Part shown: positions 49-46,900 of the stretch, piece after piece
Position numbering within the stretch: position 1 is the stretch's first letter
Layout: every line of letters starts with the position of its first letter
From: Hemicentrotus pulcherrimus
Lineage: Eukaryota > Echinodermata > Echinoidea > Camarodonta > Strongylocentrotidae
Reading direction: 5' to 3'
DNA length: 64,000 nt
Assembly (NCBI GenBank): GCA_003118195.1
Contig: BEXV01000155.1
Span: 192,025-256,024, forward strand
Notes under the pieces: generated by a model
Told to the model about the DNA's origin: nothing
The model's database searches: none
Seen by the model: the letters and a program-made list of their open reading frames with translations, nothing else
Position numbers and translations under genes: made by a program

Positions 49-3000
49 CTGTTATGTTCATTAGAAAGGATTCCATGTGGTGTTGATTTGTTATGATATT
101 GAGCAAGATTCCAGTATTACAGGCATAACTATTGTGATGAGTCCTCTTACATTAGGTACACATGGATTCATAACATCTTTATTTTTATGTCTATACTGCT
201 AGGCAAAAAACCCTCTTTCATCATGCATATTGCAAACTCTTCACTTATTTCTTGTATCATTCAAATTGAATTAGCTCGTCCAGGTAAAATATCTTGTAGG
301 TGGTTACAGAATCATATATCAACATAGGGTGACTACTCTATAGTACACTACATATACCAACCTCACTGATAATTGAGTCATCAAATTCATCCCATTCAAA
401 TTTATTGTTATCATTTTCTGTGAGTACATTACTTTATTGATACTTCAGCAATAAAGGAACAGAGATAATATGACAAAGACATACAGAGAAAAGGAGAACA
501 TGATAAGAAAAGCCCAGGACTTGACCTGATTAAAGGTCCATACAGAGTAGGTAATGTAAAAACATTAATTTTCAACTTGTGAATTGCATAACGATTCCTC
601 TCTTTCATGGTTGAAGGACAAGCATGGAAAGGCAACAATTCTCACAATCATTGCAGAAATCTGTTGTGTTTTTTTCATTTCAAATTGTTCAAACTAGAAT
701 TATATTCTTGGATGAAATGCAACAATTACATAAACAAAATGAGAATCTACTGACCATCAAAGAATCCACTCTGGTCTGAAGCAGCCATCTTGGGTCTAAG
801 CCTCTCACCAGGCTTGCGTTCCTGACCTAGTGTCGTGGACCTGAGATGAGGCTCTGTTGCCGTGGAGGAGTTGGTGACCTTGATGATGCGATCCAGGTTG
901 TTTCCGACCTTGTTGAGGTCAGTCATGGTGGGTTTGTAGTTGACCACATCCTCACGCAGAGGCTATGAATAGATGAGGAATACAGAGGTTGTGATGAATA
1001 GAACACAATAAGCTCTGATTTTGAAGACATTTCATTGTCTGTCAGCAAGAAAGCCATAAAAGCTATGTATTAGCAATGGCAATAGTAGCTTTCTTGCAGG
1101 CAGCCAACATCTTGCAATATACATTGTACAAATGCACTCATCAAGATCGCTTTATAAACATAATTGTTGTGTTCTTCTTCCTGGCTTTTATCTTTTTATA
1201 GATACAATGGATTTCTGTGAATTAATATCTTTGTAGTAACATACAACCTGTAATGTTATTTCTCGCATCACATTAAATCCAATTTTTTTTTTAATCCACA
1301 AATTTTTTGTATACATTTATACAATGTTGATGGATTTCCAAACATATGACACTACACTGTACATGTATATTTTGTATACATTTTTTTTTAGCCAAATACA
1401 TATGTAAAACAGGTAACTGTTATGAACCAAACAATCTTAATTCACAAATAATGTTGATTCAATTGATGGAATAAAGGTAATTGTCTTAAATCTGCTTATA
1501 CCCACCTGAACTTCTCTGAGTTGTATCTGGATGGTCTGTTTGTCCATGGAGACCGGCTGGAGTTGTTTGACTTTCCTCTCTGTAGTGTCTAGCCAGTAGT
1601 TGGTGTCCGTGCTGGCTGTGCCATACTTCTTGGTGGCCACCTGCCTCTCCTCCAGCTGCTGGGTCCTGTAGAGAGAGGCGAGAAGAATTTATTAATTTAT
1701 TTATTTATTTATTTATTTCTAATATTTTGTTATGGAAGCCCATTCACCAATAAGCAATCATATGAGGAATACACTCTCAGTTCTAATATTACATGCACTC
1801 ATCTATAAAAAGTTTCTTCATCAAATTTGTTAGATGTCTAAGTTTCAGTTTATCAACGGTGATATTTCTCACTACGCTCTTTTTTTGGCAGGTAGCAGCA
1901 ATGTCAATGTGGCGCTTCATATTATGTAAATGTACACGTTCATGTACGTTTAAAATCACTTAATTACCAGTGAATAATCTTAGTATAAAGAATAAAAAAT
2001 CCTTGCACTAATCATTGAGGAATCCGATTTACAAACCTTCAGGTAAATGAAAAATTATTCAACTGTAAGGTTCTTGAAAAGATAAGAGGCTTATAAGTAA
2101 ATACACCAGATTATTTGTTCATTGTTCTTCATTTCTGATGAGATTTAAAACTAAAAATTGAACAACTTTCAGCCGAATTATAAGCAGTTATTTCTATATG
2201 CAGATGTAAAAATCGCTTCATTTAGAAATGATACATATAAAAATGGCAAAAAGCAAACCTCTTTTCGATGCCATCCTCCAGGCACTCCCAGTTCCTGTTG
2301 GTGTTCTCCAGGACCGTGGATACGAAGGATGTATCGCTTGCCTTGGGGTGCTTCAAGAGCTCTGAGCCAAGACGACGGACCAGGTTCAGCTGCTGGGTGT
2401 GGCCCTCCATCTGACGCTGAGAGTCCTGAAAACAAGGACCAAAAGAAAGGGATTAAAGCTATATGTAGTACTACACTGTAAGTAGTGGTGATGGAACTGT
2501 ACTTCATGAAAACCTGGCATTAATTGCTTCTGAGGTGGGCATCATGCAATGAATGGCTTGTATGGCCCACAGTAAAATGTAAGTGGACCAAAATTAAGAA
2601 GAAAAACAGTCATGCTTATCAGGGTGTTCCATTCCACAAGTGTTAAATGAATAAATACATAAACAGATAAATAAATAAATAAATAAATGAATTAATACAA
2701 AACAAGTAAATAAATAAATAAATAGAAAAACAAGCTTTTCAGAATCTTGCATGAAAATGCATTTCCTGAAAGCATTCTAGTGAACTTAATGTTTACTCAT
2801 CTTACTGTGCTCATTGCACATTTTATATTAAATTTGTTTGGCAGACAATCATGTACAGTGTATTTTATAGTTATGAATGTTCAGCCCAAGTTTGCACTGA
2901 ATCAATGAAATCCTGTTCTCCTTCATCGCCAGAATTCTTTATTATTTTACCATCTAAAATGACTGTATTATGATGGTCAAAATGATGATAAAAAAGAAAT

Positions 3001-6000
3001 TAAACGAACCATGAGCTTGCTGGCAACATCATTGAGGTTGCCCTGCATGAAGTTACTGCTCTCGATGGTACTGATGACAGGTAGTTCCCAATCTTCCAGA
3101 GAATCCACCTGTTTCACAAACTCGTTCAACTTGTCCGTCAGATCAGTCAGGTATTGCCCAGTACCCTGCAATTCAATTCATATCAATCCAGTTTATTTCA
3201 ACTTAAATCACCAATATTCAATTCAACTTGATTCAATTCAGTTTAAAGCAAAATCATTGTGTTTTAAGTCAGATTCATTAATATCCAAGCACATTTAATA
3301 TATATTAATCCAGTTCAATTCAATCTAAATCACTTCAATTTCATTAAATTTAAATCACTTAAAGATGAAATCTCCTCTATACCGGTACTCTTCAATCTAG
3401 TTTTATTCATTCTAATTCAATTCCATTCAGATCAATTTACTTAAATTTAAATAATAAAATCAGTTTAGTCTATTTCAATATGATCCGATTCCATTCCGTT
3501 CTATTTCGTTCTATTCAAGTAAAATCAAATCTATTCAACTCTGAAATCAAATTTCAATTCCTTTGATTCAAGTTACTTCAATTCATATTTTGCTGGTCTA
3601 TGAAAAAGATGCAATGCCTAACAACTACTTTCTGGTTTATTGATCCCTTTTTCTCTCTTCCTCCTGTTTCCTAATCCTTTACCTGTGTATCTGAATCGAC
3701 ATGGGTGTAGCGTTGATTGATCTCATCAAGCTTTGACTTGATCAGTTGGGCAACCTGAGGCTCACTGTTCCTGATCAGATCCCCAGATTGCTGATTGATG
3801 GACTCCACAATGGGACGATGGTTGTCAATGTCCGTTTGCAGGATCTGAGAATAAAAGATATCAATCAATAAATATGAAGCTCTCCTCTTTATTTATCACA
3901 TTTTGATTTTGTGTTTCAATGTCTCATATTATATCAGTCTGGGGGAATGATTGCAATTAAAAAACATTTTTGGCTTTGTCTCGACTTCCCATTCACAACT
4001 TCACATTCACAGAATCAGTCACTGAACAACTAACCAAAAAATTCTGCATGGTCTATTAACAGACATTGTTCAACTCCATTCCCATCACTTGTCCTTGTCA
4101 TTCTGTGCCATCACTAGGTTAAATGGTTGCAGGTATACAATTTAATAAATCTATAAGTAAAACAGCAGATACATCTATGAACAGAAACTCAAAATATGTA
4201 TTGATACCATCATTATTGTTTTGAAACAGAAAAACAGCAGATTAAAATTGGAAAATATATTAGATCAAAGTTACTCCATACCTTGTACTGTTGGTAGTGT
4301 TCCTGCAGTGGTTCCTTCTTGACCTTGACAGCAGTACCCTTGTCAAGGACATGGTAGTCCCTCTCTGCCTTGTCCAACCAGCGCAGCAGATCAGCCATGC
4401 TGTCCTGGACACTCTGCGACTGAGAGAGGGCGTTCTGTAGGGTGTTGAGGCGGTCATCGATGGTGCCACGCAGTCCATCGTAACTGTTGTGAACATCGGC
4501 TAAGGAGAGAAACCATAAATTGTTTGTTAATCCAAACTTAAATTTGCATTTAACTTGATGTGCAGAATTCAAAATCACAGAAGCACCAGTGGAGTTTTTA
4601 AAAAAAAGAACAAAAGAGGTGTATTCTTTTCAATGCCTTTCATCTCTCTAGGAAGTCAATTCAAGCCTCTCAGAAAGAGCCATTTCAATAGACATATTAG
4701 GTAAACAGACAATTTCATAAATTTGCTCTTTGTCAAGGAGCTTTATATATTTTTTGACATGAAAGCATTAGAACCGACAGTTTACCGAGCAAAGGGGATT
4801 TCGTCTTAAGTAGGCGTAAGACCAACAAGAGTGCATCATAATGATCACATGACAAGGACTGGCTGGCTGTGGTAGTGATTGAATGAGCAAAATTAAAGTC
4901 AATTCCACTTACTGGTTTTTCTCTTGATGTTGGGTTTCATCTCTGGTACGACCTCTCCGAGGGCTTGGCCAGTGGTGTCAACCAGCTGAACTTCATCAGA
5001 GTGCATAATAACATCATTAGAGAAGTTCTGTAGGCAAGAAAATTTAAATTACAATTAGTAAAAGTGAAACCTGTTTATGAAGACAGCTAAAAGGAGAAAG
5101 GAAACGTGATCTTTACAGGAAGGTTGTCATAACATACAGGTTTCTTGTATACATGTTTCAATGAAAAACAATGTATCCATGGAAATGAAAAAGTGTAGAA
5201 TTCATACAAAGGTGATTTTTATATTTGGCAACTTGCCAAGGCAGACATGACAACATATTATTCAGAAAACTGAGAATGAAACTCTAACAAAACTGAAGAT
5301 AAAAAAGACATCAATAAATACATTTAAGTCTTGTTCAGGTACATCAAAAGATTCAAGGAACAACAACGCATATCATCTGTTTAAGCTAGAAAGGCATTAG
5401 TTAGCTCTGTTAAACAGGATGAGTCAAAGTCCTTCTGGCTCACGGCAGACAATAGCTATTCTTATGGAAATACTGTCACTGTATACACTCCGTACCTTGA
5501 GGCGATCAATCTGCTTCTGAATGTCAGCCGGCTCCGCAGCGATTGGTTCCCTCACCATCTGATCAAGATTGGTCTTCGAGCTGGTCATCCAGCCATCAAT
5601 GTAGTTGACTGCCTTGTTGTAACGCTTCTGGCGGTCAGCCACCTCGGTCATCCTGGCCAGGAAGTCAGTGGAGTCCGTCTTGAGACGGGAGTAGCGGTCA
5701 TTCAGGTCAGTCAGGTTGGAGTGGATGACGTTTGAGTCTGGGTTCTCACGGTATTGCCGGTTGAACTCGCGAGGTAGAACAGCAGACCTGAACTGAGACA
5801 GGTCTGATTTGTAGTTCTGCAAAGGAAATATGATGATAAAGTGCCCGTAGGTGTTCAACCCATCCTCATACAAGTTTATCTACATTGTTATTTGTTCGTT
5901 TAACTTATAATTGAATTATGGAGAAAATCAGTGATGTATGAGCCAGAGCTCTCTTTTGGCAGAATTCCCCTATGGTTTTAAAAGTGCATCTAACATTTGA

Positions 6001-18000: not shown

Positions 18001-21000
18001 TGTTAATATAAAGTACAATGTATAGATGTTGTTTCTAGATGTTTCTTTATAAATACGTGTTATGTCATATCCACAATGATGGCAAAAATTCTGAATTGCT
18101 AATCAAACTTAAAGCATAACTAAAAATTGTCTTACAGCCTTGTGAGGGCCTCCTCCATGGTTTGCCAGTTACGATCAAAACTGCGCATGAGATCAGTGAC
18201 AAAGGTCGCATCACGAGTGCGCTTGTGTCGGATTAGCTCGTCAGCGACTCGCTTGATGCGCTTGTACTCTGGTGTGTGATCCTCTACCTCACGTGCAATT
18301 CTCTGAAAGTTTTAAAAAGTCAAAGAAAGTTCAAGATGTGATACATGTACATGTATGTCTATTTAAAAGAAAATGTCCATACGACTCTTCTACAAATTGA
18401 TAAAAATAATGTTCTCCAAAATGACTGTGAATATTTAGCATTCAGATCAATGCAAGAACAAATCATAATATTTCACAATTTATTCATCTTCAGGAAATAT
18501 CTTGTCTCTGTGAAGTAAACAATCCTGTAAACAGTAAGTGCCTTACCTTGGTGACCTTCTCAATATCTGGTATCTCCTGCTTCTTGAGTTCCCTAGACTC
18601 CAGGACATCCAAGGTTGGGAACACCCAATCCTCCAGATTATCCACATCTTCGCACAGCTTGCCAAGGGTATCCAGCATGCCATGCAGATCCTCGTTGTAC
18701 TGACCGGACGTTGTGACGAGGGCATCGTAGCGACGGTTGAGGTTGTCGATGTTGTTGCGCATCTGTCGGGCGGTGGCGGGGTTGCCAGACTGGGCCAGTT
18801 TGTTAGCCTTGTCCTGGAGTGCCTCCATGGTGGGGCGTCTGCTCTGGAGCTCTTGGTCAATCAACTGGAAGGGGTATATGGTATTGGTATTAGTACAAAG
18901 GCATGGTAAGACTCATGCACTGTCTTCTTAATACTTTTTAAATCAGTTTAACCCCTCAAAAGTATTAAATTCAATAGGAGTTGCATTTACATATATATGG
19001 TGTATTTAAAAAACAGATTTCCTCCTTTACCTTTTTCAACAATTTGAAATCCAATCCCTTAAATTTTTTCTTCGTATTTGGTTCGTAACTAATCTCTTTC
19101 TCTCTGTGTGTGTCTCTCTCTCAGTTTGTATTCCTATCTTTCTCACCTTGACGTTCTGCATCTCTTCCAAAATCGGCTCCTTCTTGACTGTGACCTTTGC
19201 CCCATCCAGTCGTCCGACCCTCCTCTCTAGGTCATCTAGCCAGCTGAGGGTCGTATCCATGCCATCCTGAAGACCCTGCATGTCAGCAAGGGCGTTCTGG
19301 AGGTCATTGTCCTTACGGGCGAGGTTGGTGTTCACAGTGTCATACTTGTTGATGATCTCGTCTGCGAGGAGTTGGGGGTAGCAAATGAAATTTAGCATTG
19401 TTATCGTCATGGCCAATATTACAATCCTTAACTGCATCATAATCACAGTATCATCACCATTACCCCCATCATAATCATCATTATCATTACCAACATCTTC
19501 ATCATCAATCATCATCATCATCATCAATCATCATCATCATCAATCATCATCATCATCATCATCATCATCCTCCTCTTAATCCTCATCACTATTATCATCT
19601 TCCTCTTCTTATCCCTCATTATCCTCATTTCCATCAACATCATCACTATCATCTTTATAATTGTTCCAATACCTATTATCATCATCCACATCATCATCAT
19701 CATCATGACCATTATCATCTCCTTCATCACATGATACATTATAAATGTACCAAGTTATGGTCTTTGTTGCAACACTGAATACCCCAACTCAAATCCACAT
19801 CTCATGGGACCATACAAGTAATAACTTACTGACAGTCTTGTCAATGGTTGGTTTGAGGTCTGATTGCGCTTCCGCTAGCTCATTACCAGCTGCCTTCACT
19901 CTATCTACATCCTTCAGATGGCGTGCAACATCATCATGAACAACCTGTATAACAAAATAATTTACGTACATTACAAGATGATACTTGAATTGCAAACGGT
20001 TCAAATCTAGAGTAAATTATCAGATAATACTAAGCATGAATTATATTTCTGGACATGATGTTTGTTGACATTTCTTGACATGACGTTTGTTTTCATAAGG
20101 TTTTACAGACAAGTAGTTCTTGAAGCCGCTCTGTCTATCCTTCTCTTGTTGCTATTCTTGTTTTTGGTCCTATCCTTGGCAAAATCTCTTTGACACTCCT
20201 CTCTTGCACCCCTTCCCACTCCCCTCTCTCTACTCATTAATCCCTCTAAACTCTCTATCTCTTCTCTTTTAAAGTCTCACCTCGACTTGATCAATCTGCT
20301 CCTGAGCCTTATCTTATCCTGAGGAATGGGCGCGCTCTCTCCTCCTCTCTCTCTCTCTCCCCCTCTCCCTCTTGTGCTTCACTTTAAAGCTGTTCTCCCT
20401 TTACTCTCTCTACCTCCCCAACCACATCCTCTCACTTCTCCCCTTGCCCCTTCCTCTCCCCTACCCTATCAATCTCTTCTTATCATCATCACTGCCTTTC
20501 CCTTTCTATCTCACCTTGACCTGGTCAACCTGCTCCTGCACCCTGGTCCTATCCTCAGCGATAGGTTCTCTCTCCATATCTTGGATGGTCACGTGTATGT
20601 CCTCAATCCAGGTCGTCACCGCCTCCGTTGAGAAGCGCCACTTCTCATGCAGCCCCAGGAGATTGAGGATGCGCTGGGTGTGCTCGTTGCAACGCATCTT
20701 GAGCTTGGCGTAGCGGTCATTGATGTCGTTGAGCTTGTCGGAGATGATGTGCGAGTCCGGCTCCTCCCTGAAGTTGCGCAGGTACTGTTTGGCTGTCTGC
20801 ACAAGGTCACGGAAGTCGGCTAGCCTCTGCTTGAAGACCTATTATCAAATACAAATAGAGCATTGTTGAAGATGTTTGTATTCATAAGCTTCACATTGTA
20901 TAGGGGTATAAGTCACAAGCATCAAAAATCACATTACATGTCCGTGTGCAAGTACAAAGTTTACTATCAGTATATTGTCATATTGTGTATAATATACATT

Positions 21001-22916
21001 TCTTAATATTGATTCATGTTTGTTTATTCATGTTCCATACTGGTGGTCACTAAAGCAAGTTTATTCTACCACGTACAAAATCAACAGAACTGATATTAAC
21101 AAAAGACCTACCTGGTTTTCACCCAGGAACTTCTGTCCTGACATATTGATGAAGCGCAGATCGGCAGAGTGTGCAACGACCTCCTCATTGAAAGGATGAA
21201 TCTTGTTGACCTGCTTGCGAAGACCGTCCCTGTCCCTGGCCACATCCATCAGGTAGGCTTCAAGCGTTCGTTCTGCAGAGCAAAGCCAGGTGTCAAAGGA
21301 CGAGAACTCACGGTCAAACTTCTGGACCTCGTTCAGGCCGGAGTTCACCTGCTGGCTGCGGGTGTCTGATTCCGAACTGACGTTCTCGAAGCGGTTCTGA
21401 GGATAAGAGTTTGATGTGAAAGTATGAGGCTCAATTTCAAGTTTCCATCATCGACAGCAACATGAGTATCACCATCATTATCATGACTACTGCCACTGTC
21501 ATCTTCAGCAGCATCATCAATAACATCATCACAATCATTGTTAACATCAAAATAAATATCCCTGTCAATATCACCACCATTATCATAATCACTGTCATAA
21601 TTATCACAAGTGTTAATTTTACTTTACCATAGTTTATCTTCATTATAATATGTAGATCTGGTGAGAATAAATATCACTGAGTAAAGAATTAAATTTGTCC
21701 ATGTAGTTGAGTAAGGTTGCCAGAATTCACCAACACAAAGTTGTAGAGACAGTAATAATGGTTGAAAAATAATTAATTGTGATGGCCCCCACCAGTGTGG
21801 AAGATGGAAACCAAATCATATGAAAACTGGACATTTAAAGTCACCCTCTGGACACAGTTCTCCAAAGCAGAGAAGAGGAGACAACTGAAGGCTTCCTCTT
21901 GTTCAGAGAAATGGGATAAATGAAAAAGTCTGGCAGAATATAGAGATCCAGATCGATGGAGATGATTCTGCAGTGCACATATTCAAAGTACTTGACAAAT
22001 TAAAATTGAATTACCACCTGTGAATACAAGAATCAAGTATGAGATCTCAGAGACAACAGCTGATGACTAGGTTGCTGCACGAGTCTTCAGTAGAGGGGGA
22101 AGGTCTCAGTAAAGAACAAATATTATGTAAATATCATCAACAAAGACAGCAACAAGAAGTTAGGCGTTCATCTTGACCACAATCCCTTTAAGATGTTCAG
22201 GGAACAAGTTGATACAGAAGTGGAGAACACTGACCAGATATGGACCTTAATGTTTGATGAGAGAATTATTGGACACAAAGATACATGAACAGCAATACAT
22301 TACAAATTAATATGAAGAGGATTATTATGTTTAACAAGAAAAATAATCTTGCGAACTCTAATATTAGAGGCAGGCAATATATTGCCATTATTTTACTTTG
22401 TTCATTGAGGTCTCCAAAGTTTTATTTGTTTTTCATCTATATACTTGCCATTGCTATTTGCTTTCTGGTATGTGTCTTGAAATAATGTTAATTCTATTTG
22501 ACTTGTTTGAAGTACCTGTTACATGTAGTACTTTTGTACATACATATGTTTTCTATTGTAAAGTTGACATTTCAATCCTATTGTATTTCTGTTATCCATT
22601 TAGTTCACAAAATAAATAGGGCAAAGTTTGTTAATGTTAATTTTCCGATATTTCTCTTTAATATTATATGTAGATCAGGTGGAGCTAAACATCTTTGAGT
22701 AATGAATTCAAGTCAAGTTTTTCAATCACCACCACCACCATCATCATTAGGTTCATGATCATCACCACCACCTTAATCTTACCTTTAGGTCTATGATGCA
22801 ATCTCTGAGAGTTGAAAAGATGTTTTCATTCGGTGTCTCTAGCCGTCTCTACAGTAAAAAATGACTCTTGTGAACATTAACATCATCATCACTATCCCCA
22901 TCACCATCACCGTTAC

Positions 22917-22948
<32 letters not shown>

Positions 22949-25900
22949 CCATCACCATCATTAATATCCTCATCATCATCATCACCACCATCATCATCAT
23001 CATTGCCATCATAACCTTACCTTGAGATCTACAGAGTACTCTCTGAGAGCTGATGTGCTGCTGTCACTCAGTCTCTCTGGCTGGCTTTCCAACAAGAACT
23101 GACCATTGTGAACGGCCAGCATGACCAGCTCATGATGCTGTCGGACATCTTCATGAATCACCTGATCAAACAAACAAGGTTAAATTAAGATGCATGAGCA
23201 TGTAGATGTACTGTATACATGTATGTATTAAAATGGGACAATTGCTTAAAACTTGCGATATCTCTTTATAGAAGAAATAGATAAAACTCATGTTTTTTTT
23301 TAAATATAGTATAGCTAAATTAAACCCCTAACATACAGACCAAAATATGTTTTGGTCATTGATACACTCAGTGATGGCTCAGGTGTATAGCAGTGGTCTT
23401 GTAACCAAGAGGTCCTGGGTTCGAAACCAAGTCAATGCGCTTATTCCCTTTGGTAAGGCATTAATCCTCATTACCAAGTCCCTCAGAGAAGACATAAAGC
23501 CGTCTGTCCCCTGGTTGCTTACTTACAAGCATATACATGCTTTCTTAGCAGTCAGGTAGAACAATAATCAACCGACCAACCAACCAATATGAAATCCTTG
23601 GATTCTCTTTTCTACCAGCCTTCTGTTTGATATAGTAGTATAGCTGAATTGAACCCCTAACATATAGACCCAACATACTACTTGATCATTGATACACTTT
23701 ACATCTAAAGTAAGAAATGATTCTCTTCTCTACTCTACTCACCTTCTGTTGCCTGTGTTGTTCACTGAGAGGTCTCATCTCTTCATTCATTGGCTGCTGA
23801 AGGACCAGCTGACGCTCAATGTCACTCACCCACTCCATCAGGTTACGGAGAGATTGGATCTTCTCCTCCGTCTCTTTCAAGAAGTTCAACTGCAAAAGGT
23901 GAAACAAGAATCAAGTAGGCCATTTTCATAATATTACAACAAATTATATTTGACCCAATGCCTACTGGATCCGGGTAGCTCCTGTATTAAGCCTATGGGA
24001 ATAAGAGAATGCAGGAGTCAACAAGTTAAGTGCCTTGATACAAATTAATTCATTCACCTGTTACGGATAATTGTATTTCAATTGCCAGAATGTTGTCAGG
24101 TCGGGCACCCATAATGTTTGTCCTACCTAGCAACAGATAATGTATGCAATTTGAATTTGGACTATAGAGATACATTTATTCCTAACAGGTGAATGAAATA
24201 ATTTGTATTGAGGCGCTTCACAAAGATGTATGCATAAATCTGGTTATATTATGAAAACGGCATTATCAACCTTGACTACTGAATTATCTAATTCCCATAG
24301 GCTTAATACAGGGACCACCAGGTTCCAGTAAGCAGGGGTTAACACCAATAATGAATGCTGCATGAATAGTGAATTGCATTTACATGTCAAAAAGCCATAT
24401 GTGGTTGACAAAAAATTAAATGTGTACATGTAGGTCAATATAGGAAATTTAATGTATATCCCAAGTAAATAACTGATTGAACAGCATCTTTCTTATAATT
24501 GCAACATCGTTGAATGTAGTATGACAAGTCTGGTAGAGCAAAAGCATCTATACAATTGATGCAGATGCATTAGAAAAATTTGGATTAGCCACTATAAGCT
24601 GCAAAGCTTACCTGATCCTGCATCTTGCGAGTAGAATCTGAAGCCTTGTAGTTAGCCTGGTCGAAGTGAGTTCGGAGATCATAGATGCGCCTCTGGAGAG
24701 CGTCCTGCTGATCAGGGCTCAGACGATCCTTGTGATCCCTGAGGAAGCTCTCGATGGCCACAATGATCTCCTCAATGGTCCGCTTGTTGTCACTCAGCTC
24801 ACTCTTCACTCCCTGAAGACAAAGATTGAAACAAAAAGTTTGAAGAATCCTGTTTTATGGTCTTCATATAATAGCAGCATGTTACACAAACTGCAATGCC
24901 TTCATTTGTATATGATATTTCACAATGTTTAATGCATAATGTGGTTAAAATCTCACAATACTTACATGTCCTATCAGGAGCAGGTGAAGGAAGACCCGTG
25001 GGCCATGGATTGACATGTTTCTGAACCAAATTAAGCATTTTCTTATCGTCCTATTTTAAAATGTTGAAATACTAAACTACATGTATATGGCCTTCCTTTC
25101 TTTTCTAGGGTAACAGTGGATCATATGCCTATCACCCTCAACCCTCTTCTTTGCACTGGTTTTCATGCTCTTCAAAGATGGAAATGTGTTCATAACATGG
25201 GCCATAACAACAAAAATACTGTACACCAGCACTAGCAAAAGCATCAGGACAAAAGAAAATCTTGCATCCTTGGGTACCTGGGTCAGTACTACAATTCATG
25301 GATTCATTCAACAAGTCTGAAATCACATGACATACCTGCATGGCTCTAAGCTGCTGCTCAAGCTGGTTGATATCGCTGCTGAGCGGACCCTGAGAGTCCA
25401 GCTGAGCCTCCAGGTTGGACAGCCAGTCCTGCTGGGATTTCACAGAGCGGAGTTTGTCATTGAACAGCTTGGACAGGTTGAGGAAGGCGTCCAACTCCTC
25501 ACGACGGAACGTCAGCTTGTTGCCAAGGGCGTCGTAACGGTCGATGGTGCGCTTGGTGACGCGCTGGGCCTCTGTTGTTTCTGTTGTGGTTAAATGAGGT
25601 TAGGGGAAAGAAAACATGAGTAATCCTGTGCTGCATAGAGTTGTACAATCTAAACAGTCTGACTGTGTAACAATCAAAACAGTTTCCCTATGTACATATA
25701 TGTTGCTGATTTATTTTCTTCAGTTATAACCAAACCGTGCCCTGCTCGTGTTTCAGGATAAAAATTTCACACCCAAATCTAAATAATAATGAGTTCTTCT
25801 TCATTCATATTTAATCCTAATTTAATTCTACATGTCACACTAATATTGTGCTATTCTTATAACGCACATATCACACTATGATGTCATGTCTCTATGCGCT

Positions 25901-31900: not shown

Positions 31901-34900
31901 GGAGGTCGCTCATCTTGGTGTTGAGTTCCTTCTGCTGGTCCTGTTTGAGGTACTTGTCCTTGTTCTGGTAGATGAAGCGTTCAGCGTTGGTCAGAGATTC
32001 ACCAATGGGTTCTTTCTGGTGAACAATCTCCTCAACAAAGTTCTGCAATGCAATCAAAGTTGTTATATTTATAAAATGCTAGCCATGCGGGTTCAAGTGT
32101 ACTCTCAAGTACAGCCCAGACACCAAACAAGAATGAACATGGTTGGCTAATTTCTAAATTACCCCTTTGGCTCCTGTAACTGAGTGGCCCATGTATTAAG
32201 CCTACAGGAATGAATGAATTCAGTAGTCAATGAATTAAATTTGTACACCTGTATTTCAGTTGATAGCCACAATTTAAGTAACTTTACTGTCTTTTCAAGC
32301 TTTTAGCAAATGATGTGTTCATGAGCATGTAGTTCTCTGACTGAAGAACAGAAAGTTAATCATTTTTATTGCCCATCATCCTTGTACATGTAAAGAGTAT
32401 GGGGGTTGTCAACGTTCAAGTCTTAGAAGCAGTCATTTGCTCATCAAATGGGCAAGAGTCATTTAGGTTTCTGACCTGTATTACAAATATTTGAATGTCT
32501 TTCAACAGATCAGCAAAAAAAAACTTGGAGGGATCCTAAACAATATTCACTGATCTTCTGCCTCTCAAATGTGAAGAATTTTCTGCTACATCCAAACAAT
32601 AGGTCATTTGGAATTCTGCAAAGTAATCCCTGATGCTGTCCTTTCCTAAAAATACAAGAAAGCATACTCTCAATACAAATGAACAAGAAGTTTTTTATGA
32701 TCCTGAAGACTAACCTTGTGCTTCTCGAGCTGGAAGGTCAGGGTCGGAATGTCCTTGCTGACCGGTTCCAGGTTGGTCAGTTTCTGCTGGGTGACATTAG
32801 TCCAGTAGCAGAGGTCACTGACAGCCTGGAAGATGTTGCGGAACTCCTTGTCCAGATCGGCCTGCGGATGTCCAAGGTGGTCAGAGACGAGTGGACAGTG
32901 GTCCAAACAAGGAACAAGGTGGAGAGAGATGGGTGCCAAGTGCCCAAGAATGGGTGTACAGAGAGGTCAAGACAGAGGACCAAAAGCAGAGAATGGATGA
33001 AGAAGAAGACGAAGATAAGCAAAGACAGAAAGAACAGGCAACAGGGAGGGGTGGGGTGAGCAGTTTTGAGAAGAAAAAAGGGCATGGGGAGAAAACCGTT
33101 GAAGAAAAAAAAATGCAATTAGCATAGGACATCTTACAAATGAAAGATTAAAGTTTCAAGATAAGTGTTTCTGTACTTACAATCTGCCTTCTGCTGTCTT
33201 TTAAAAAAAAGAAAATTTGTTAGCATTGACCTGTATCATATGAATACATGTAATTGGTGTATGGTGTAAACTTTTCATTGGATATCTGTGTAAAAAAGCA
33301 AAATATCTTCTTTGTGTACTGGTGTATAGATTGCATTATGCCTTTGTTTGTTTAGTTTATTTACTTGTATCTCATGATGTACAGAATGTAACATAAATTA
33401 CTCTCTTTGCAGAGGTTTGTGTCTGTTTTTTTTTATAAACTCAACACACACACACAAACCCACACTGTCATAATCAACATAGTCACTCATGCATAGACAA
33501 TCACATAAGCTGTATTTAGAAGGGAAAAACAGATAACTGATACATGTACATTACAATGAAAACATTACTTACTTAACAAAACAAAAACATTAATACTGGG
33601 GGTATGTAAATCTTAAATATATTAATCTCTTTGTACATACTGTATAAAGCTATTTAAAAAAAAAGTTGAACAAATTTAAATATCACAAAAAAATTGCATT
33701 TTGTTATATAAATTAAAAACATTCTTGTTCCTCAACCTCTAAAGTTCTTAAGATCAGCAAACAGTTGTAATCATCGGGAGTGAATATTGTATACAAGAGT
33801 GCCTTCTTTCAATTTAGTTTTTACAAAACAATGTACATTGAAAATTTGTTCCATATATCAACTATTACTAAAATCAAGAATGAAAGATGTGTACCAATAC
33901 ATACAAATAAAATAAATAAAATTCAATAAGTAAATGCAATTCATTGTTACGTATTCATTTTTAACAACGCAATATAAAAAATAATACTATACTTCATTCT
34001 AAAAGAACACAAAATAAAATGATAGTGTGACATACAAGGAAGAAAGATCGGACGCAGATTTATCCCCAGATACCAGACAATGGGATGAGTTTATTCATAT
34101 TGTTCTGTTCAGTAGTTTTTTCCACTGTTTACAGAATAACAGTAGATGACATGAAAATGGACAATGAACCAGTTGAGATATGAGAGGTAAAAAGTTAGAG
34201 AAAGGGGGATTTCCAAAAGCATACATTTTATAATATCACATTTACCTGTTACAAGGAGTTGAGCTTGTAAATATTTGTAAATAAACTATATTATAATGTA
34301 AATAGCTCTCAAATGGACGTAAAATTGCAGTCAACACACACACACACAAACATAGTTTGGAAGAATCTTCAGTCAATTGAAAGAGCCAGACTTAATCAGA
34401 AGAAGAAGAGGAAGCGACATCCACATAGCCTTTATCACATGAAACATTAATGTTTTAACCGGGGCACAAATACACCTGATGGCGCACTGTACTAATCAAG
34501 AAGAAAAAGAAGAATGATTGATCTCTGTCTCAATGTTGCTCAAGTGCCAATCCTAACAGGAAAAGCAGTCATGCTCTGGAGAAATGAATTTCTAAATCTT
34601 GACTTGTTCATGTACATAGTACAATGTCATGTCATCTCCAGTTCATCATCGAAATCTGTTGGTCAGACAGATGCTCCCCTCAACAGCATTGAGATATAAG
34701 TTGAACAACACTTTCACCACCCAATGTAAAATCCATGAAGACCCAAAATGCAAAAGAATGCAGTATACACTTACCATGTAAATAGGCATGACAGTCCTAA
34801 ATTATGTAAAGTACTGAAAGACATAAAAATACAGTCTACAGCATGATTCTACATAAGAAATGAGTTGACTATAACCAAGAGGAGTGGAAAAGGCAGTCCT

Positions 34901-37900
34901 TCACTTTTTTTCTACAACTGCCGTAAGCTTACCAAGAATGCATCATCATTGGATGTCGAAGCAGCCACATTAGTGCTAGGATTTGTATAGGCCAGTGGGA
35001 TAGGAGAAGCAGTAAATGAATCGATGGTGTTGATGGCAGTTAAAGGGCTTGAGTAGGGTATTGCAGAGGGTGCCTGGTCATCATCGACAGGAGGCTGTTC
35101 CTGCAGCTGCAACTCCACCTGCCTACCCACAACCTCAGGGTTGATAATCAGGGAGATCTGAACATTCAGGTAGTGTGGTTCCTGATCTGGTAGTGGAGGC
35201 GTCGCAGACATTTCAAATTCACGCAGAACGGTATTGAACCCATGGTCCTTGCTTTCGTCCGGTTGGGCAGCTTTGACATTGGGACATGACTGATCATGAC
35301 TTTGCAATGTATTGGCTATTAAGGTCTCAACAGATAGATCAATCTTTTGGGGTTCCATGACTTTAGACACATTGTCTACAATGGTCTCTGCAGATGGATC
35401 ATTAAGTTCTGGTTTAACAGCCTTGGCTTCCGGGCTTTCCCAGGTACGCATGATGTTGACTTTACGAATATGAATTGTGCTCTCATTACTCTCATCCATT
35501 ACATCAGCTTCCTCATCCAGGCTTTGCCATGTATCGTCTATTTTGGTCTCCATAGACGGATCGATCATTTGGGGTTTCCCAGCTGAAGCCTCATTTCTGG
35601 CACACACATTGCAGCTCTCTCTACTACCCGAAGGGTACACAGACATTGTCCTACCCTTCAACATCAAGAAAATCTCATTGCGTTGTTTTGGCAATCCTTC
35701 ATCAGCTCTCACACTCCGACACGATCTTGGTTCTGCCGTGTTTCAGCTTTTATGGTCTCCTCGTTTCGGGGTTCCACTGACTCAGCAATCGAGCTTTGCG
35801 ATGTACACACAGTATGATACGAACTGTCTCCACTTTCATCTGGTTTATCAGCTTTCAATTCAGAACTTACCAGTTCCCGATCAGGCCATTTATTGGCTAT
35901 TGTGCTCTCTGCAGATGGACCTTTCATTTCAGGTTTCACAGCAACCGAATCCTCACTTTGCAGTTGTCGCACAGTATGGACTTTACAAACATGAAATGTA
36001 CGGTTGCTGCTTCCATCCAGGTCAGTACTTACCTCAACCAGGGATTGCCATGAATCAGACGTTGTGGCGTCCACAGATGGGTCACTCATTTCTGGATTCA
36101 CAGCCATAGCCTCCTGAGTTTGCAATGTTCGCACAGTATGGACTTTATGGATGTGAATTGTACGGCTGCGGCTTCCGCCCAGTTCATCAGGTTTGAAGTT
36201 AGGATTCATCTGATCCCGGGTTTGCCGTGTATTCTCTATTAAGGCCTCCACAGATGGATCCATCATTTCAGGTGTTCCAGCCGATCCTGCAATTCCATAT
36301 CTTGGGTCATGGCTCCCTCCACTGGTAGAAGGGTGTACAGGGATTGACCTCCCTTCAAAGGTCAGGAAGGCTTGGCTACGTTGTTTAGGCAATCCTTCGT
36401 CAGCACTCACACTCGGGAGGGACTGATCCTGACTAAGTCGTGTTTCGGCTATCATGGTCTCCACATGCGGATCAATCATTTGGGGTTTCCCAGCTGGAGC
36501 CCCTGCCCCGATACGCACCATGTAGCTCCCTCTACCCTCAGAAGACTGTACAAGGCTTGAGGTGCCCTCAAAGGTCAGGAAGCCTTGACTAGCCAATCCT
36601 CCATCAGCTCTTGCACTTGGACTTGACTGATCCTGGCTTAGTCTTGTATCAGCTATCATGGTTTCCACATACGGATCAATCATTTGAGGTTTCCCAGCTG
36701 AAGCCTCCATCCTCACACGCAGGTTGTAGCTCCCTCCACTGGCAGAAGGCTGTACAGGGGTTGACCCGTCAAAGGTCAGGAAGGCTTGGCTGCGTTGTTT
36801 AGGCAATCCTTCAAAGACTTTCTTGGTTAAAATGCTCTGGCGAGTTGGTGAAAATGATTTGTACATCTCTGGAGAAGCATGAAGCTCAATCTATTAAAGA
36901 ATAAAGAAAAAGGAAAAATACTGATGAACATCTTCTGTGACACCAGTATATTTGTGAGATATTATTCCAAATCATAAATGTGACCAAAGAGCATCATTTG
37001 CATTTAGTTTCAACTATCTTCCAAAATAAATAAGGGTCTTTTTGTATATTCTAATGCCTTGATTCAGTTATAGAATATCTTGTCAATAATTTTTGTATTC
37101 ATTACAATCATTCTAAACAAATGATGAATTGTTTGCAAACAGGTAAAAATGGAATTGCAAGGACTAGGAAAGTCAAACAAACAGCAGATTTCATTGGCAT
37201 TTGTTTAACCTGAGAGTGATTGCACATACATGTACACTAAAAACAGTTTTTCTTACGTTCTAAATAAATGAGATTTCCTTCTTAAATTGGCACTTATTCT
37301 TATTTTCTACTCCTAAAGAGTTTTTTTATAATAAAAATGTATCTTGTGAGAGCAAAAGTGAATGAAAATTACAAAATTACACCAAAAAGTTGCCAATTTG
37401 TATACAAGACTAGAGGTAATCAATTGTACATTGCATTACCGATTTAAAGATTTGAATGATTATTCAAATTTAAATTGTTTTTATACATGTAGAGCACAAT
37501 GTACTGCAGTAGAAATTTTCCTGTAATTTTTGTTCTTCTCATGTACATGTATAATGTGCAATTCATAGCATGCTGAAATAAAATCTAAAAACATCTCTTG
37601 AAGGAATGAACTGCTACAGGATAATACACAGTGTACATTCAAATGTATTGTCAAAATGCTATGGTACTTTTGATGTGAAAACAAATGAACTCAACTAATG
37701 TATAGTTAGAAATACAACATTGTCTTCTGTCCTTGTTTGACATTGGACAGTGTACACAAACTAATTACATATAAAACATATAGAACACAATATATGCAAC
37801 TTGTTACACATATAAACAAAAACTGTTTGAATTAGAAGCATGGCAGATCCATGTTCATACTGTATATGTATAAAAACTTCTTTCTCTGTCACAATCAATG

Positions 37901-40900
37901 ATATGTAACTTATTGCATGTATCGCCATCATGTTAGATGTCATCCCCGCCCCCCCACACACACAAAAAAGAAAATACTGGCCTTCATTAAATCACTGACT
38001 GTCTTCTAGAATCATCGTTTAAATTTCTTAATATCCCTATAAAGTACATCAAAATGGTATTCGGTGGAAAGAATAATTGCTTGGCATGCCGGAGTGTATT
38101 AACATGGAAGCTAATTAAAGCTAAAGTTGTGGTAATACAGTATTCACCACTTTCCATGTTTATTATTACAGTGTATTATCCTTATCACCTACATGTATAT
38201 TATATAAACATGCACTGGTCTCACATGCATCATGCATATTTTGCTTCCTTAGTAAATTGTTATCATAATGTACATGTATTAGTAAGTTAAACACACTATA
38301 ATGATATAAGAATGCGTGATGTATTATTGACGAATGTTATCAGTGGAAATTAGTTAATTCAGCAACAAATTGATGAATTTATTTCATTAATTATGCCAGA
38401 GAATCAAATGACGTCTCTCTTTTCTTGGAGAACCTTGACAGAAAAACAAATATTAAATAAAAGAAGGTTACATGCTTTCCATGAACATCTCATAATAATG
38501 AAGTGTCTTCTTTTTGGTTTTGTCAATGCAAGTACATTCATGCAATAATGCATCTAAAACTTGTTCCCTAAAATAACATCTCCAGGAGTTTAGTCAGAAT
38601 TAAGCATGCTCATTAAAAAGAGTTGTTTAATCTTCTTTTACTTGTTTTACTCTTGACATACATGTAACAGCATTCCACCCAAAAATATTAAATTAATAGC
38701 AAGCAGGATGAAATTTTTTAAAAATTACATGCATTTAACTTACAATGGCCTTTTTCTGATGCAAAAAGGGTAATGAAATAATAACAAATAAAAGCAAAAA
38801 TAAATAGGGAAAACCGTGTTGCCTGCCTAAAAACTAATATTTATAAACATGTAGTTGTAACACAAACTTTAAAAGGCTAAGATGGCAAAAATTGGTAGTG
38901 GTTGTGGTAGTAGTGGCAATGGTAGTGGTAGTGGAAGCAATGAGAATGATGAAGTTGCAGCAAATGACAAGTTAGATGTAAAGGGTCATAACTCACCTTC
39001 ATGATTTGGAAGCAGAAGGTCTTTAGATGACTTAGCACAGAAATGTTTATAGAGCTTGTAATATAGAATTTTCCTTGTTAAAAGTACCATTTTTTTACAC
39101 AGATGTACATGTTATAATAAATCTGTTATTCATAATTTCTGTTATAACTGACAGAACAGAGAAACATCACACGTACATGAAACAATGTATGATTCCACAT
39201 CTGGTTTGGATGGCATGTAAATATGTATATAAAGGTAATATATACTCTGTTCATGCATAAACATGTAGTTAATGTAAGTATTGTGTTTGTAAACAGTAAA
39301 TTACAAAGGTGTTATGTGTACATGTATGTACTTGAGGGTCATTCAAGAAAACTTGTAATAAAATTGTCCCATATTTGTCGCCTTTCAAGATTACTGCATA
39401 CAAGTACCGGTAAGTAGATAGAGGTATAATGTTAGCATATGAATACACATGGACCTCTTAATAATATGTTTCACAATAAATGTAAGTACATTTACATGTA
39501 CTGTACACACTAACATGAATAATACAGGACGAAAACAAGCAATAAAGTGTACTTGTAATATACTGTACATATACGTGTACATCAAACATTCTTGTACACT
39601 GCAATATATTTTGATGGAAGTCTGTATTGATGTAGATGTTTTGCATTGATTTTGAACAGAAGGGGAAAATTTTGTTTGTATGTCTTTGAGAAATGGTGCA
39701 AAAGATGACAGAATTCCTCATACAAGGAAAGTAAGGATGACATCTACAGTACAACTATTTCATTAAAGTGATGTTAGAATAGCAGAAAAGAACTGTTCTC
39801 ATTTATCTTTCTGATCTGTCAATATCACAGTCAATCATTGTTAAAAGTACACAGTGAGTCACTTCATAATAAAGATGTCTTATAACGGCGTCATTATCGG
39901 GCATTCATGTAACTTGCTCCAAAATATAAATCATAATCACTTTAAACTCCTCATGTTCATGCAACTTCAAGAAAATGTTCATCTTTAAGGATGACTGAAG
40001 AAGTTCTGAGCAAAATGTCAGCTCAATCATTATAGCAATGGCAGTTTATAGCAAGAATTTCATGTATGTCGTAAAAAACTAGCTTTAGAAATAATGAATG
40101 TATCTCTGCATCACACATTTCATGGTTAGTAGATTATTTTTTCTACATTAATGAATTTCTGCTTCATCAACTACAATGATATGGGGGCATGGGCACACAC
40201 TTTGAAAGCAAAACACCACAGACCATGAGCTTGATCTGTATCTGAATTATCTACAATTGTAAAAGCAACACTGCTTGATGAAAATGAAAAACAACACTTC
40301 ATTTCAAAATTGGAGAAGATTTTTGGTAGATTATCATTTATGAACTGCATTTCCAATATAAATGCCTCTTGAAGGAAAGATTTCAGGGCCCTGTCTTCTG
40401 GAATTTTGTATTAATAATTTTGATATCAATCGCCACTCTACACATAAAGAGATCCTAGATTGTTAATTTGCGATACATTTGAATAAGAGGACTGGTGACT
40501 GATTCAGATGGGAATCCCAATATTAGTACAGTATTATGAATAATGTAGGACTGATTTTACCACTGACAATACAAGGAATCCTCAACCCAGCTTTTCATGA
40601 AGCTATGCAGATGTTGGAATGAGAGAGGAAGAGATGATGAAAAGAAGAATGAAAAAAAAAATAATATCTACTCACATTCTCCCTCTTGCCGACAGCGCTG
40701 ATGTTATCCACTCTTTCCGTGACGGTAGCCACAAATTCTCTGTATCGTTTGTTGAGTGCGTCCAGCTCTTGGCGAGCTACCTCCGCACCTCGATGCATTC
40801 TGGCATGCTTGGGAGGGGAGGGGCCATGAAGGTTGTCCATGGTGGCCCTGAATTTTTCAAGTACTGCATCATAGGACTGTTCAATAAAGAAGATATTCCA

Positions 40901-43900: not shown

Positions 43901-46900
43901 GGAAAAGATTATTAATTATTAATAATTATTACAGGCATAAATTACAAGAAAAAATTGAGATAAATACATGTTTAACGATTACATGTTATACAATTTCCCT
44001 CATAAGCTATCAAAAATATATGATTTATATGAAATTTTTTTAAAGAAGGAGGGTGCAAATGTACAGGTCTTGGGGATCTTATCACATTTGAACAGACTTC
44101 TGGAAATCTTTACCTTGCTGAGTCCGTGCTGACATCTCATCAATGAGCTGGTTACAGCTCTCAACCTCTCTGATAAGATCCTGATTCAAGAAGTCCTCCC
44201 TGACCTCCTGTCGACCTATGACCTCTGGTTCACGACCCCTGACCCCTGCATCAACCTCGACATGGGGATGTTGACTGATGACCTCTGGTCGAACCGACAT
44301 GACTTCTCTCTGAGGGGTGGCTGAGGCGACTTCTTCCAGCTGTTGCTTACTTTGGTTGAGTTTCTGAATAGTAGCTTGACGTTGAGTGGGCTCCATCCCT
44401 TCAAACTAATGGTTACAAAGAAAAAGAAAAAGTTAGCTTTGGATGTAGTTCATTTATAATAAATGTTGACAAATTTGCAGTAATTGACCTGCAGGTAAGT
44501 TAGTGGAACTCATTCCCTCAAGTTCATTTCGGTGTTAATCTTTCAAGCTGATTTAAATTAATAGCATGACTTACATTGAGACATCTCTGTTTAAGTCTAG
44601 TAATTTCTGGTTGGGCCAGATTTTAGTTGAAATTGGTTCAGCAGAATTTAAATGCCTTGACATGAGTGGAGTTTGGTTGAATTCAACTGAATTACTCAGT
44701 TAAGCTCAGTTTGGGGTTCAATTAATTTCATTCAGGTTCATTGTTCAGTATTCCAGTATTCAGAATTCAAGAGTTCAGTGTTCAGTGCTCAGTTTTTAAT
44801 AATCAGTATACAATGTTTACAGTATTCCGTCCCATCCAGTTTTCAACCTACCTGTTCTAATGTCCACTGCCTGATTGTCTCTACCCCTTGTGATATCTGC
44901 TGTTGGCTCATCCATGTTCTCAGCTTAGTTTGCTTGGAGCGACACAACGCTAGTAACCTATTCAGCTGATCCTCCAATCTGAAATAAAACAGGTTTCATG
45001 GACTCATTAATGACTACAATGACATTATGTACAAGAAGCTGTGGTTAAAATTGTGGTACACTCTCTAACTGATCAATACAAATCTTGAAACGGCAATGAT
45101 TTTTTTTTTTTTTTTAAACAATTCATTAATCTTTCCAGTGAGCATATAACGTGACAATTGGTGTTGCTCAAATGGCATAAAATGTTACATGTTTTGGAAT
45201 GCATCAAAAAAGATTATAAATTAACAAAATTGACATGGGGCAATACTGTGCAATAATTGTTTGAGAAAAATATTTTACATTTGACCCAAGACCTGAAATG
45301 AAAGTACTTGAATTTGTACAGGTTAAGGTGATGCACGCTGAATAGCATACCTTTTGGATCAACACAGAAAGTTGAAATGAAAGTTCAAGAAAGCATCTTT
45401 TCTCATAAAAGAAAACAACAATATCCCTCAGTTAAGGTGAGGTTGCTTACTTGTTTGTTAGATCTACAGCTTCATTGTTCGGTGGGGGAATGAGGAAGCA
45501 AACTCCTGGAGCAAAGCCTTCAAGACCGAGGCTGTTCACAACTCTCCATTTCATACGGTGGGAATTATCAGTCAGGGTACACCTCTCTCCCTTCTGAATG
45601 TGAATCTGAAAGCAGGGGGAAAGAAAAAAAAGTTTAGACAAATCTTAATTTTTCACAAATGTGCCCTTTTGGATAGAGTGTAACTGAATATTTTGAACAT
45701 GTATTTCCATTGCATTGGAACCTAAAGCCCTGTCTGTTCAAGTTTAAAATCCTACCATGACTTCTATCAAAACTAACTGCTGAAAATATAGCACTCTTTA
45801 GTGTGATTTTGACAAGAATATTTCTTTAAAAAAAATATTATTGAATCTGAAATATGCCCATTTAAACATCTCAGATTTCATATGAGAAACAAAGATTTAA
45901 ACGACTTCTATCAATGCCCTAATAAAAAAGAAAACAGTATGTATGAATCTCTTATCTCAAGACATACACTGTACACAAGAATATTGTAGGTACTGGTAAC
46001 ATCTCTTTTACATCTAAGTGTACATGTATATACACACTCCATGAGACTGAACAATGTGGTAATGGTGTAATGCTGGGATACAATGTATCATGCCTCTACA
46101 GCCAACTGACCAACAACGTCAATTACAGTATAGCCCTCAAGGCAGCGTGACATCCAGATTTCATATTTCATACAAAAAAATCTGTTGAAATACAAAATTA
46201 CAGGTAAATGAATGATTGTCATGCAAGTTTTTGATGATGTTACTTACGTCGATGCCTGCATAATCACACACTGCAGTCACCGGTATGCTGGAATGTATCT
46301 TCTGCCTTCTCTTCTTGAGCGGAACTATCCTCCCGCCCCGACCTACCAGGTCTCTAACAATCACCCTGTACTCAGACAGGCGGGTCTCAAGCTCCTACAA
46401 AAGAAAGTTAAAATGAATACAGAATACCGGTAGTAAGTTCTTGCAACGTTACCCTATTAGTGACATTGAAAAAGTAATGGTTTATATGTATCAAAGCCTA
46501 TCTGCACTATTTTGGCCAGGAGGGATTAGAAATCCCTGCATGGTCACCGACAGGTGGTTATCTCATTGAATCAGCTCTCAATAAACATAAGAAAAGGGAA
46601 CCAACAGTCACCAATTAGGCAATGTTTGCTATATACATGTAGAAGGCGCAAGTAACTGCAAATAGTGCAGTGGGGCTTTAAAGCAAAGGTCATAATATTT
46701 TTATTTTTTTTTATACATATATGTAAACTGTAACAGAAATGGAATATGGGAAATCTGATCAAATTCACGACATGTTTTTGGAGGAGCAAGGTGAGTGTAC
46801 TGGATTACAGTTGCTCTTCTTGAAGATCTAAATAATAATAGCAACAGCTATTATGATATTTTGAATTAACATGTACAGAGTGAACAATTTTCCTTTTGGC

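Follow-up and report, generated by a model that had tools for sequence, protein, structure and literature searches.

The stretch of Hemicentrotus pulcherrimus DNA analysed here, all 64,000 nucleotides of which we call the window (assembly GCA_003118195.1, contig BEXV01000155.1, hereafter C155, positions 192,025 to 256,024), carries on its minus strand part of a gene that, judged by its sequence, is a spectraplakin of the MACF1/dystonin/Shot/VAB-10 type, and within that gene a large exon of unfamiliar tandem repeats. Two plakin SH3 exons at 45451..46394 (46394-46248 and 45605-45451) match PF17902, with 50.5 bits at C155:237510-237632 and 23.5 bits at C155:238272. Spectrin repeats (PF00435) score above the cut-off in three of the six flank and rod pieces scanned, two before the repeat-bearing exon and one after it, and related rod exons extend to C155:119.9k. 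A GAS2 domain (PF02187, 70.3 bits) at C155:45697-45834, on the same contig and strand, presumably belongs to one transcript with the exon-bearing gene. Two CH stretches are present in P0001, a protein of the sea urchin Diadema setosum, and the exon-chain program placed candidate upstream exons here at C155:263-262k. The plakin SH3 domains, the spectrin repeats and the GAS2 domain downstream on the same strand bear out the spectraplakin context in which the initial annotation had set the exon. The mitochondrial code of the assembly is that of an echinoderm: its COX1 uses AAA at 6 apparent Asn sites, ATA at 9 apparent Ile sites and AGA at 3 apparent Ser sites, and a nad4l-like frame lies between cox1 and cox2.

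The repeat-bearing exon, exon 19 of our gene model, occupies exactly 34933..36890 on the minus strand, between an acceptor TTTATTCTTTAATAG/ATTGAG at 36890 (entered in the feature list as TTTAATAG/ATTGAG) and a donor TTCTTG/GTAAGC after 34933. The upstream flanking exon (40676..40876, minus) terminates in KREN and the downstream flanking exon (32715..32861, minus) begins with ADLDKEF; both borders are in phase 0 and both have a homologous junction in P0001. With phase 0 on either side, the reading frame is kept when the exon is skipped, as expected of an optional exon, and splice phases and the P0001 junction agree with the earlier proposal that the flanks rejoin in frame. When a 393-residue probe from the exon was searched against the 414-Mb assembly, it matched at this exon alone, in three places, and no second genomic copy or haplotig of the exon was found in the assembly.

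Nine cores and two kinds of spacer

The exon encodes nine cores of the form AxKPxMxDPSVExxIxxTxxSxDQ, in agreement with the approximate count in the initial annotation. On the minus strand they lie at 36627..36698 (C1, AGKPQMIDPYVETMIADTRLSQDQ), 36423..36494 (C2), 36210..36281 (C3), 36033..36104 (C4), 35871..35942 (C5), 35724..35786 (C6, degenerate and directly ahead of a break in the reading frame), 35512..35583 (C7, in the second frame), 35362..35421 (C8, short) and 35290..35361 (C9). No spacer separates C8 from C9, which it directly abuts.

The spacers are of two kinds, A (GLPKQRSQAFLTFEG-type) and B (TIHIHKVHTVRTLQ-type). Four units have the A-type spacer, all on the minus strand: A0 (36603..36809, GLPKQR spacer with core C1), A1 (36396..36599, a spacer without PKQR, with core C2), A2 (36171..36395, with core C3) and A3 (35482..35697, with core C7, in the second frame). 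The remaining units, on the same strand, have a IHIHKVHTVRTLQ-like spacer or none: B1 (36009..36170, IHIHK spacer with core C4), B2 (35826..36008, with core C5), the degenerate B-like B3 (35724..35825, with core C6), B4 (35362..35481, with core C8) and B5 (35182..35361, core C9 and, after it, a B-like stretch). Two kinds of spacer had been described as alternating; the two kinds stand, but the alternation does not, the order ahead of the nine cores being A A A B B B-like A B none, with a B-like stretch after the last core.

At the DNA level, repeat-finding tools returned spacings of 204, 213 and 162 nt (68, 71 and 54 residues). Three A spacers were compared with three B spacers, and in each of the nine comparisons the score was reached by 26 or more of 200 shuffles, so the A and B spacers are unrelated, as far as these comparisons show. 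The same nine results gave no support to a derivation of the B spacer from the A spacer by loss of 14 codons (204 vs 162 nt). A hidden Markov model (HMM) of the unit scored 471.6 and 203.7 bits on the exon's two frames and, among 6110 open pieces from 264 kb of the contig, matched both exon frames alone, the best other piece reaching E 2.3.

A broken reading frame with signs of coding constraint

In the initial annotation the repeats occupy one exon of ~650 codons. The exon and its splice sites were confirmed, but not one open frame, because the length of 1958 nt is 3n+2 and the exon contains two overlapping open frames of 393 and 270 codons. The first (35712..36890, minus) holds cores C1-C6 and is open from 36890 to 35712, where it meets a TGA at 35711-35709. 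The second (34933..35742, minus) runs for 270 codons up to the donor; it contains C7-C9 and a tail outside the repeats (EPHYLNVQISLIINPEVVGRQVELQLQ...). A net frame shift must separate the two frames within 35709..35742 on the minus strand. Since the two frames share a common repeat family, they look like a single original frame with a net shift in this interval; the break is probably a defect of the assembly or of the allele, or is removed by splicing. Within the first frame, two near-perfect GTAAGT donors at 36033 and 35871 are exactly 162 nt apart and occupy homologous sites of two B units. Both are in phase 0 and could serve alternative splicing inside the exon.

No stop-free frame on the coding strand is longer than the first frame, whose 393 codons exceed the 178 reached at most by 500 dinucleotide shuffles. 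Nonsynonymous divergence (dN) was below synonymous divergence (dS) in all nine within-type pairs formed by seven of the nine listed units (B3 and B5 were excluded), with both sides of the break sampled; these pairs are not independent. Among units drawn from both sides of the break, differences at codon positions 1/2/3 numbered 101/93/145 for type A and 49/45/62 for type B, third positions differing most. Judged from these substitution patterns, constraint on the exon looks real but modest.

The repeats match neither plectin nor spectrin repeats

That the units are neither plectin nor spectrin repeats had been claimed from their appearance, and Pfam, local HMMs, HHalign and Foldseek agree with this claim. 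Pfam searches of both exon halves returned no plectin match at E≤10 (HMMER filters drop most matches above ~0.1), and none of the eight units scanned, of nine, matched Pfam at E≤1. A plectin HMM built from Protein Data Bank chains and fish envoplakin gave the exon -0.5 bits and gave 70.7 bits to residues 2401-2830 of the Caenorhabditis remanei protein P0002, which lie outside the model. A second plectin HMM, whose iteration recruited 12 sequences and then none, gave the exon -0.4 bits, against 351.7 for P0002 and 140.8 for P0003, both of which are source sequences of that HMM, so that the first HMM is the independent test. In HHalign comparisons with plectin, the units reached a probability of 0.1% and the C. 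remanei control 90%. No spectrin repeat was matched in the exon by Pfam. Foldseek returned 12 matches to the unit model, with E 4.9-9.6, none of them plakins. A significant match to a plectin profile, named in advance as the result that would count decisively against the claim, did not appear.

The same profile was absent from the wider sequence. PF00681 had no match at E≤10 in the whole assembly, an emptiness that shows nothing alone, since no positive-control genome accompanied it, and a fish plectin-repeat query had none either; searches of the assembly for plakin SH3 and GAS2 were sensitive to 23.5 and 27.6 bits, respectively, in the same gene. A six-frame plectin scan of 264 kb of the contig gave no match, the best other pieces having E 2.3-2.7, and the C. 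remanei control was recovered at 3.4e-20 and 6.8e-18. Several weak resemblances were set aside. Superoxide dismutase chains, the best Protein Data Bank profile match of a unit (E 0.028), were judged a chance match (40 positions, a shallow profile and no repetition of the match by Foldseek), and DUF1148 (E 0.15) and TIGR03252 (E 0.056) fell far below their cut-offs in the exon.

Predicted structure and short motifs

AlphaFold2 (AF2), applied to the first frame alone as a single sequence, gave a predicted local distance difference test (pLDDT) of 32. An eight-row alignment of units, with A2 as its first row and the degenerate B3 omitted, gave a pLDDT of 65 and a predicted template modelling score of 0.23; in this model positions 9-20 form a hairpin, and the core is covered by a helix at 47-63. 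The exon product contains 12.4% serine and 7.7% proline. These models and compositions lend weak support to a product that would be mostly disordered, with a short helical core. A scan for short motifs counted two SxIP, no LC8, no PxxPx[KR] and one [RK]xxPxxP, which is not telling; both SxIP (EB1) motifs lie in the tail, where a rough composition estimate puts the expectation at ~0.3.

The slot between plakin domain and rod in other spectraplakins

The best protein match of the joined model is P0001, annotated as plectin-like in D. setosum, with 69% identity over 1152 aligned columns. The two agree at 69% of positions over the plakin part and at 78% over the first rod repeats and have the same junction residues, but P0001 lacks the repeat exon, joining the flanks directly (...ISAVGKEEN/ADLDKEYRN...), and is a protein of 1774 aa that ends early in the rod. 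The skipped form predicted for a cassette exon is thereby annotated, as a protein, in another echinoderm; the included form is not on record, no transcript containing the exon having been found. Three protein searches for a second echinoderm copy of the exon found none in proteins of ~216-688, 1172-3729 and 4945-15732 aa; the last of these, made with the flanking exons, returned no spectraplakin, making this a weak negative.

Compared at the level of residues, the nematode protein P0002 (C. remanei CRE_09761), which we take to be VAB-10A-like, leaves the common plakin track near the junction. P0002 is collinear with P0001 up to LNRRFAQLSSLILER, opposite LNRRYRDLVATVTER, 12 residues ahead of the junction; beyond LNRRFAQLSSLILER come a loose BLAST alignment, a 19-residue gap, a charged stretch and, later, plectin repeats. 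Its matches to the plectin profile, at first weak (from about residue 1391), become clear at 1686, with 244.6 bits to the Pfam family. P0002 thus has in common with the sea urchin gene the plakin part, up to a point about 12 residues short of the KREN border, and, further on, a long repeat region. Unlike the sea urchin repeats, its own are Pfam plectin repeats that follow the charged stretch, and it has no GAS2 match.

In zebrafish Macf1, the plectin-repeat domain is encoded by one ~7-kb exon lying between the plakin domain and the rod (macf1a exon 35), forms with and without exons 35-39 are described, and deletion of the domain left oocyte polarity normal (PMC5605089). The vertebrate MACF1b/dystonin-b exon and the one reported here are both single large exons of tandem repeats in the plakin-rod position; the zebrafish exon is optional together with the rest of exons 35-39 (PMC5605089), and the sea urchin exon is probably optional as well. 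They differ in that the sea urchin exon is ~2 kb rather than ~7 kb, has a repeat sequence and period unrelated to those of the vertebrate exon, probably encodes a disordered product, has no plectin-profile match and is frame-broken in the assembly. In Drosophila, Shot-PH is the sole Shot isoform with the plakin-repeat region, which is spliced in and whose role and partners are little known (PMC9320987). Shot-PH resembles what we propose for the present case, a central splice-in module of one spectraplakin isoform; it differs in that its region consists of plakin repeats according to PMC9320987, whereas the sea urchin units have no plectin-profile match, and Shot was compared by description only. 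The zebrafish exon, the nematode departure near the junction and the Shot splice-in support the earlier suggestion that the exon sits where vertebrates place their plectin-repeat exon, in the sense of a position between domains. Nothing was found on this exon in a literature search that missed most subscription papers.

The remainder of the gene and intermediate filaments

Our exon list for the window comprises 29 exons, from 58098 to 27343, of which exons 23 and 24 have provisional ends. Alignment with P0001 indicates that two small plakin exons are absent from the list, and the exon-chain program fills both gaps, at contig positions 247429-247341 and 244979-244902. The same program places 149 exons of the spectrin rod (~11,100 residues) at C155:224.9k-116k, arranged as about 12 tandem modules with an exon-length pattern of 115, 218, 318, 167, 160, ~205, 233, 234, 147, 426 and 321 nt. 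A further 38 exons (2,648 residues, the last EF-hand-like) lie at 73.2-46.9k, ahead of GAS2. The full chain has 230 exons, 16,634 residues and six phase breaks, and its ends are uncertain. The 40 kb between the rod parts (C155:116k-76k) contain few convincing exons, among them one that is Ig-like by eye (104809-104487, VDEGDVVVFDCHYYGYPSPEVTWFKEDTEVERNDRCLVYT); this stretch could belong to a separate gene or represent either an alternative terminus or an Ig insert. In the window, 19527-19754, 21440-21673 and 22842-23063 on the minus strand are rich in ATG/GAT-type simple repeats, and their open frames have M and D runs. Outside the gene, partial SH3_10 matches above the cut-off were found at C495:226696 (27.3 bits) and C127:239801 (25.3 bits), which may be spectrin SH3 domains, and a second GAS2 match lies on another contig (C1675:91143-91280, 47.4 bits).

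A search of the assembly for INTERMEDIATE filaments with PF00038 gave one match at E≤0.001, at C4:374618-374842, in a frame that contains TYRKLLEGEE; such counts are lower bounds, as exons can be missed. On the same strand there is also a basic KRRR motif, and downstream lies a match to the lamin tail (C4:372284-372526). Given these features, taken exon by exon, the gene is lamin-like. The absence of plectin repeats together with that of other intermediate-filament matches suggests a linked loss. Flies offer a counter-example, as Shot has kept its plakin repeats despite the lack of cytoplasmic intermediate filaments. The ancestor of deuterostomes already possessed a cytoplasmic intermediate-filament protein, according to PMC4448529, in passages that mention neither sea urchins nor Echinodermata.

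Discussion

We favour, at a probability of roughly 0.6, the reading that this exon is protein-coding and that, in an echinoderm spectraplakin, it fills the plectin-repeat slot with a lineage-specific, optional array of motifs, for the most part disordered. The array would be inserted at the junction of plakin domain and spectrin rod, the position of the plectin or plakin-repeat exon in other animals, and would consist of about nine units, each with an acidic-hydrophobic core (a predicted short helix) and one of two spacer types in probably disordered surroundings. Inclusion of the exon would be isoform-specific, giving the included isoform a flexible insert of ~620-650 residues that carries some nine short, amphipathic cores. 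These cores could act as repeated short binding motifs for multivalent docking near the plakin end, with a partner other than intermediate filaments, and the insert could in addition space the plakin head away from the rod. Multivalent docking with head-rod spacing appears the likeliest role of the included isoform, whose expression, partner and mechanism we infer. The proposal that a different sequence fills an equivalent isoform-specific slot in this lineage holds for the position of the exon; its generality beyond one genome does not yet follow.

Several observations weigh against this reading. There is no continuous reading frame through the assembled exon, which is broken at 35709-35742. 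A protein search with the first frame had no hits, and neither a transcript nor a homologue containing the exon was found; the joined model had seven matches, of which four are unnamed and only one, P0001, bears the name of an echinoderm; it lacks the exon. Among 21 ungapped core pairs, dN exceeded dS in seven, equalled it in one and was lower in 13. Disorder is borderline by composition: the charge-hydropathy value is 0.431 against a boundary of 0.433, disorder-promoting residues make up 54.8%, only slightly above the 51.8% of the folded plakin part, and the AF2 inputs used for disorder had no deep alignment. The motif scan gave no binding partner. Finally, plectin repeats are present in the spectraplakins of Deuterostomia in general according to PMC9145010, whose main text does not mention echinoderms; that source neither supports nor excludes the loss of plectin repeats in echinoderms.

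The frame break invites three other explanations. The exon could be a decaying one, long ago coding, in which a frameshift has become fixed and which is now always skipped: the assembly's only copy has the break, the sole named related echinoderm protein skips the exon, and constraint on the cores is weak. We consider this unlikely, as both splice-site sequences are intact, there are no further stops in ~650 codons, although decay over such a length should have produced more, and dN is below dS in all nine within-type unit pairs, post-break units included. Somewhat less probable is that the break is spliced out by a short internal intron, retained or removed, that restores phase 0, for example a hypothetical 92-nt intron at 35621..35712 on the minus strand (GT/GTGAGA ... 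GTAGTAG/AGAGAG), that is, 35712-35621, or one from a GAG/GTAAGT donor to the CCAGATCAG acceptor at 36032-35182. The exon-chain program selected the 92-nt intron unprompted, both GTAAGT donors (36033 and 35871) fall in phase 0 by their distance from the exon's acceptor, and the acceptor at 35181 coincides with a codon start of the second frame. But the 92-nt intron has weak splice sites and no transcript support, chance frame-restoring GT/AG pairs are numerous within 2 kb, and the sequence taken out has coding homologues among the exon's other units. Most improbable, in our judgement, is that the assembled exon is correct and forms an alternative terminus, so that a CH-plakin-repeat protein ends at the TGA at 35711-35709 with neither rod, EF-hands nor GAS2. 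Nematode VAB-10A-type isoforms do terminate after their plectin repeats, the 3300-aa P0002 has such repeats and no GAS2 match at E≤0.001, and the exon offers 393 codons from a phase-0 acceptor before its stop; the same repeats nevertheless continue in the second frame, open to a good phase-0 donor, which would be unexpected beyond a true stop.

A further explanation concerns the origin of the repeats and not the break. The exon might be a degenerate descendant of an ancestral plectin-repeat exon that has drifted past recognition. It lies in the same slot as the zebrafish plectin-repeat exon and near the departure point of the C. remanei protein; in alignments, the MIDP motif of the cores resembles the IIDP of plectin repeats. 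A plectin repeat has ~38 residues folded as a hairpin plus two helices, a plan that the hairpin and helix of the unit model loosely recall. The periods of 68, 71 and 54 residues, however, are not ~38, Pfam, both plectin HMMs and HHalign (0.1%) were without a match, and no plakin was among the 12 Foldseek matches. We regard drift as having a low probability, about the same as decay, and retain the reading of the exon as a coding, lineage-specific motif array.

A broader scenario, which we put forward tentatively and hold to be rather doubtful, is that plectin repeats were lost in this echinoderm lineage, perhaps together with cytoplasmic intermediate filaments, and that a new, disordered and multivalent array of motifs came to occupy the ancient optional-exon slot. 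The finding itself, from one genome and with a broken frame, belongs to an ordinary kind, that of optional inserts in an already known slot; its content is unusual. If the scenario is true, it is the slot and not the plectin domain that is conserved, serving as a socket for isoform-specific docking modules that differ among lineages. The lineage would then be a natural test of the role of the slot apart from intermediate-filament binding, and would show that giant linker proteins can exchange one docking module for another while its exon position stays fixed.

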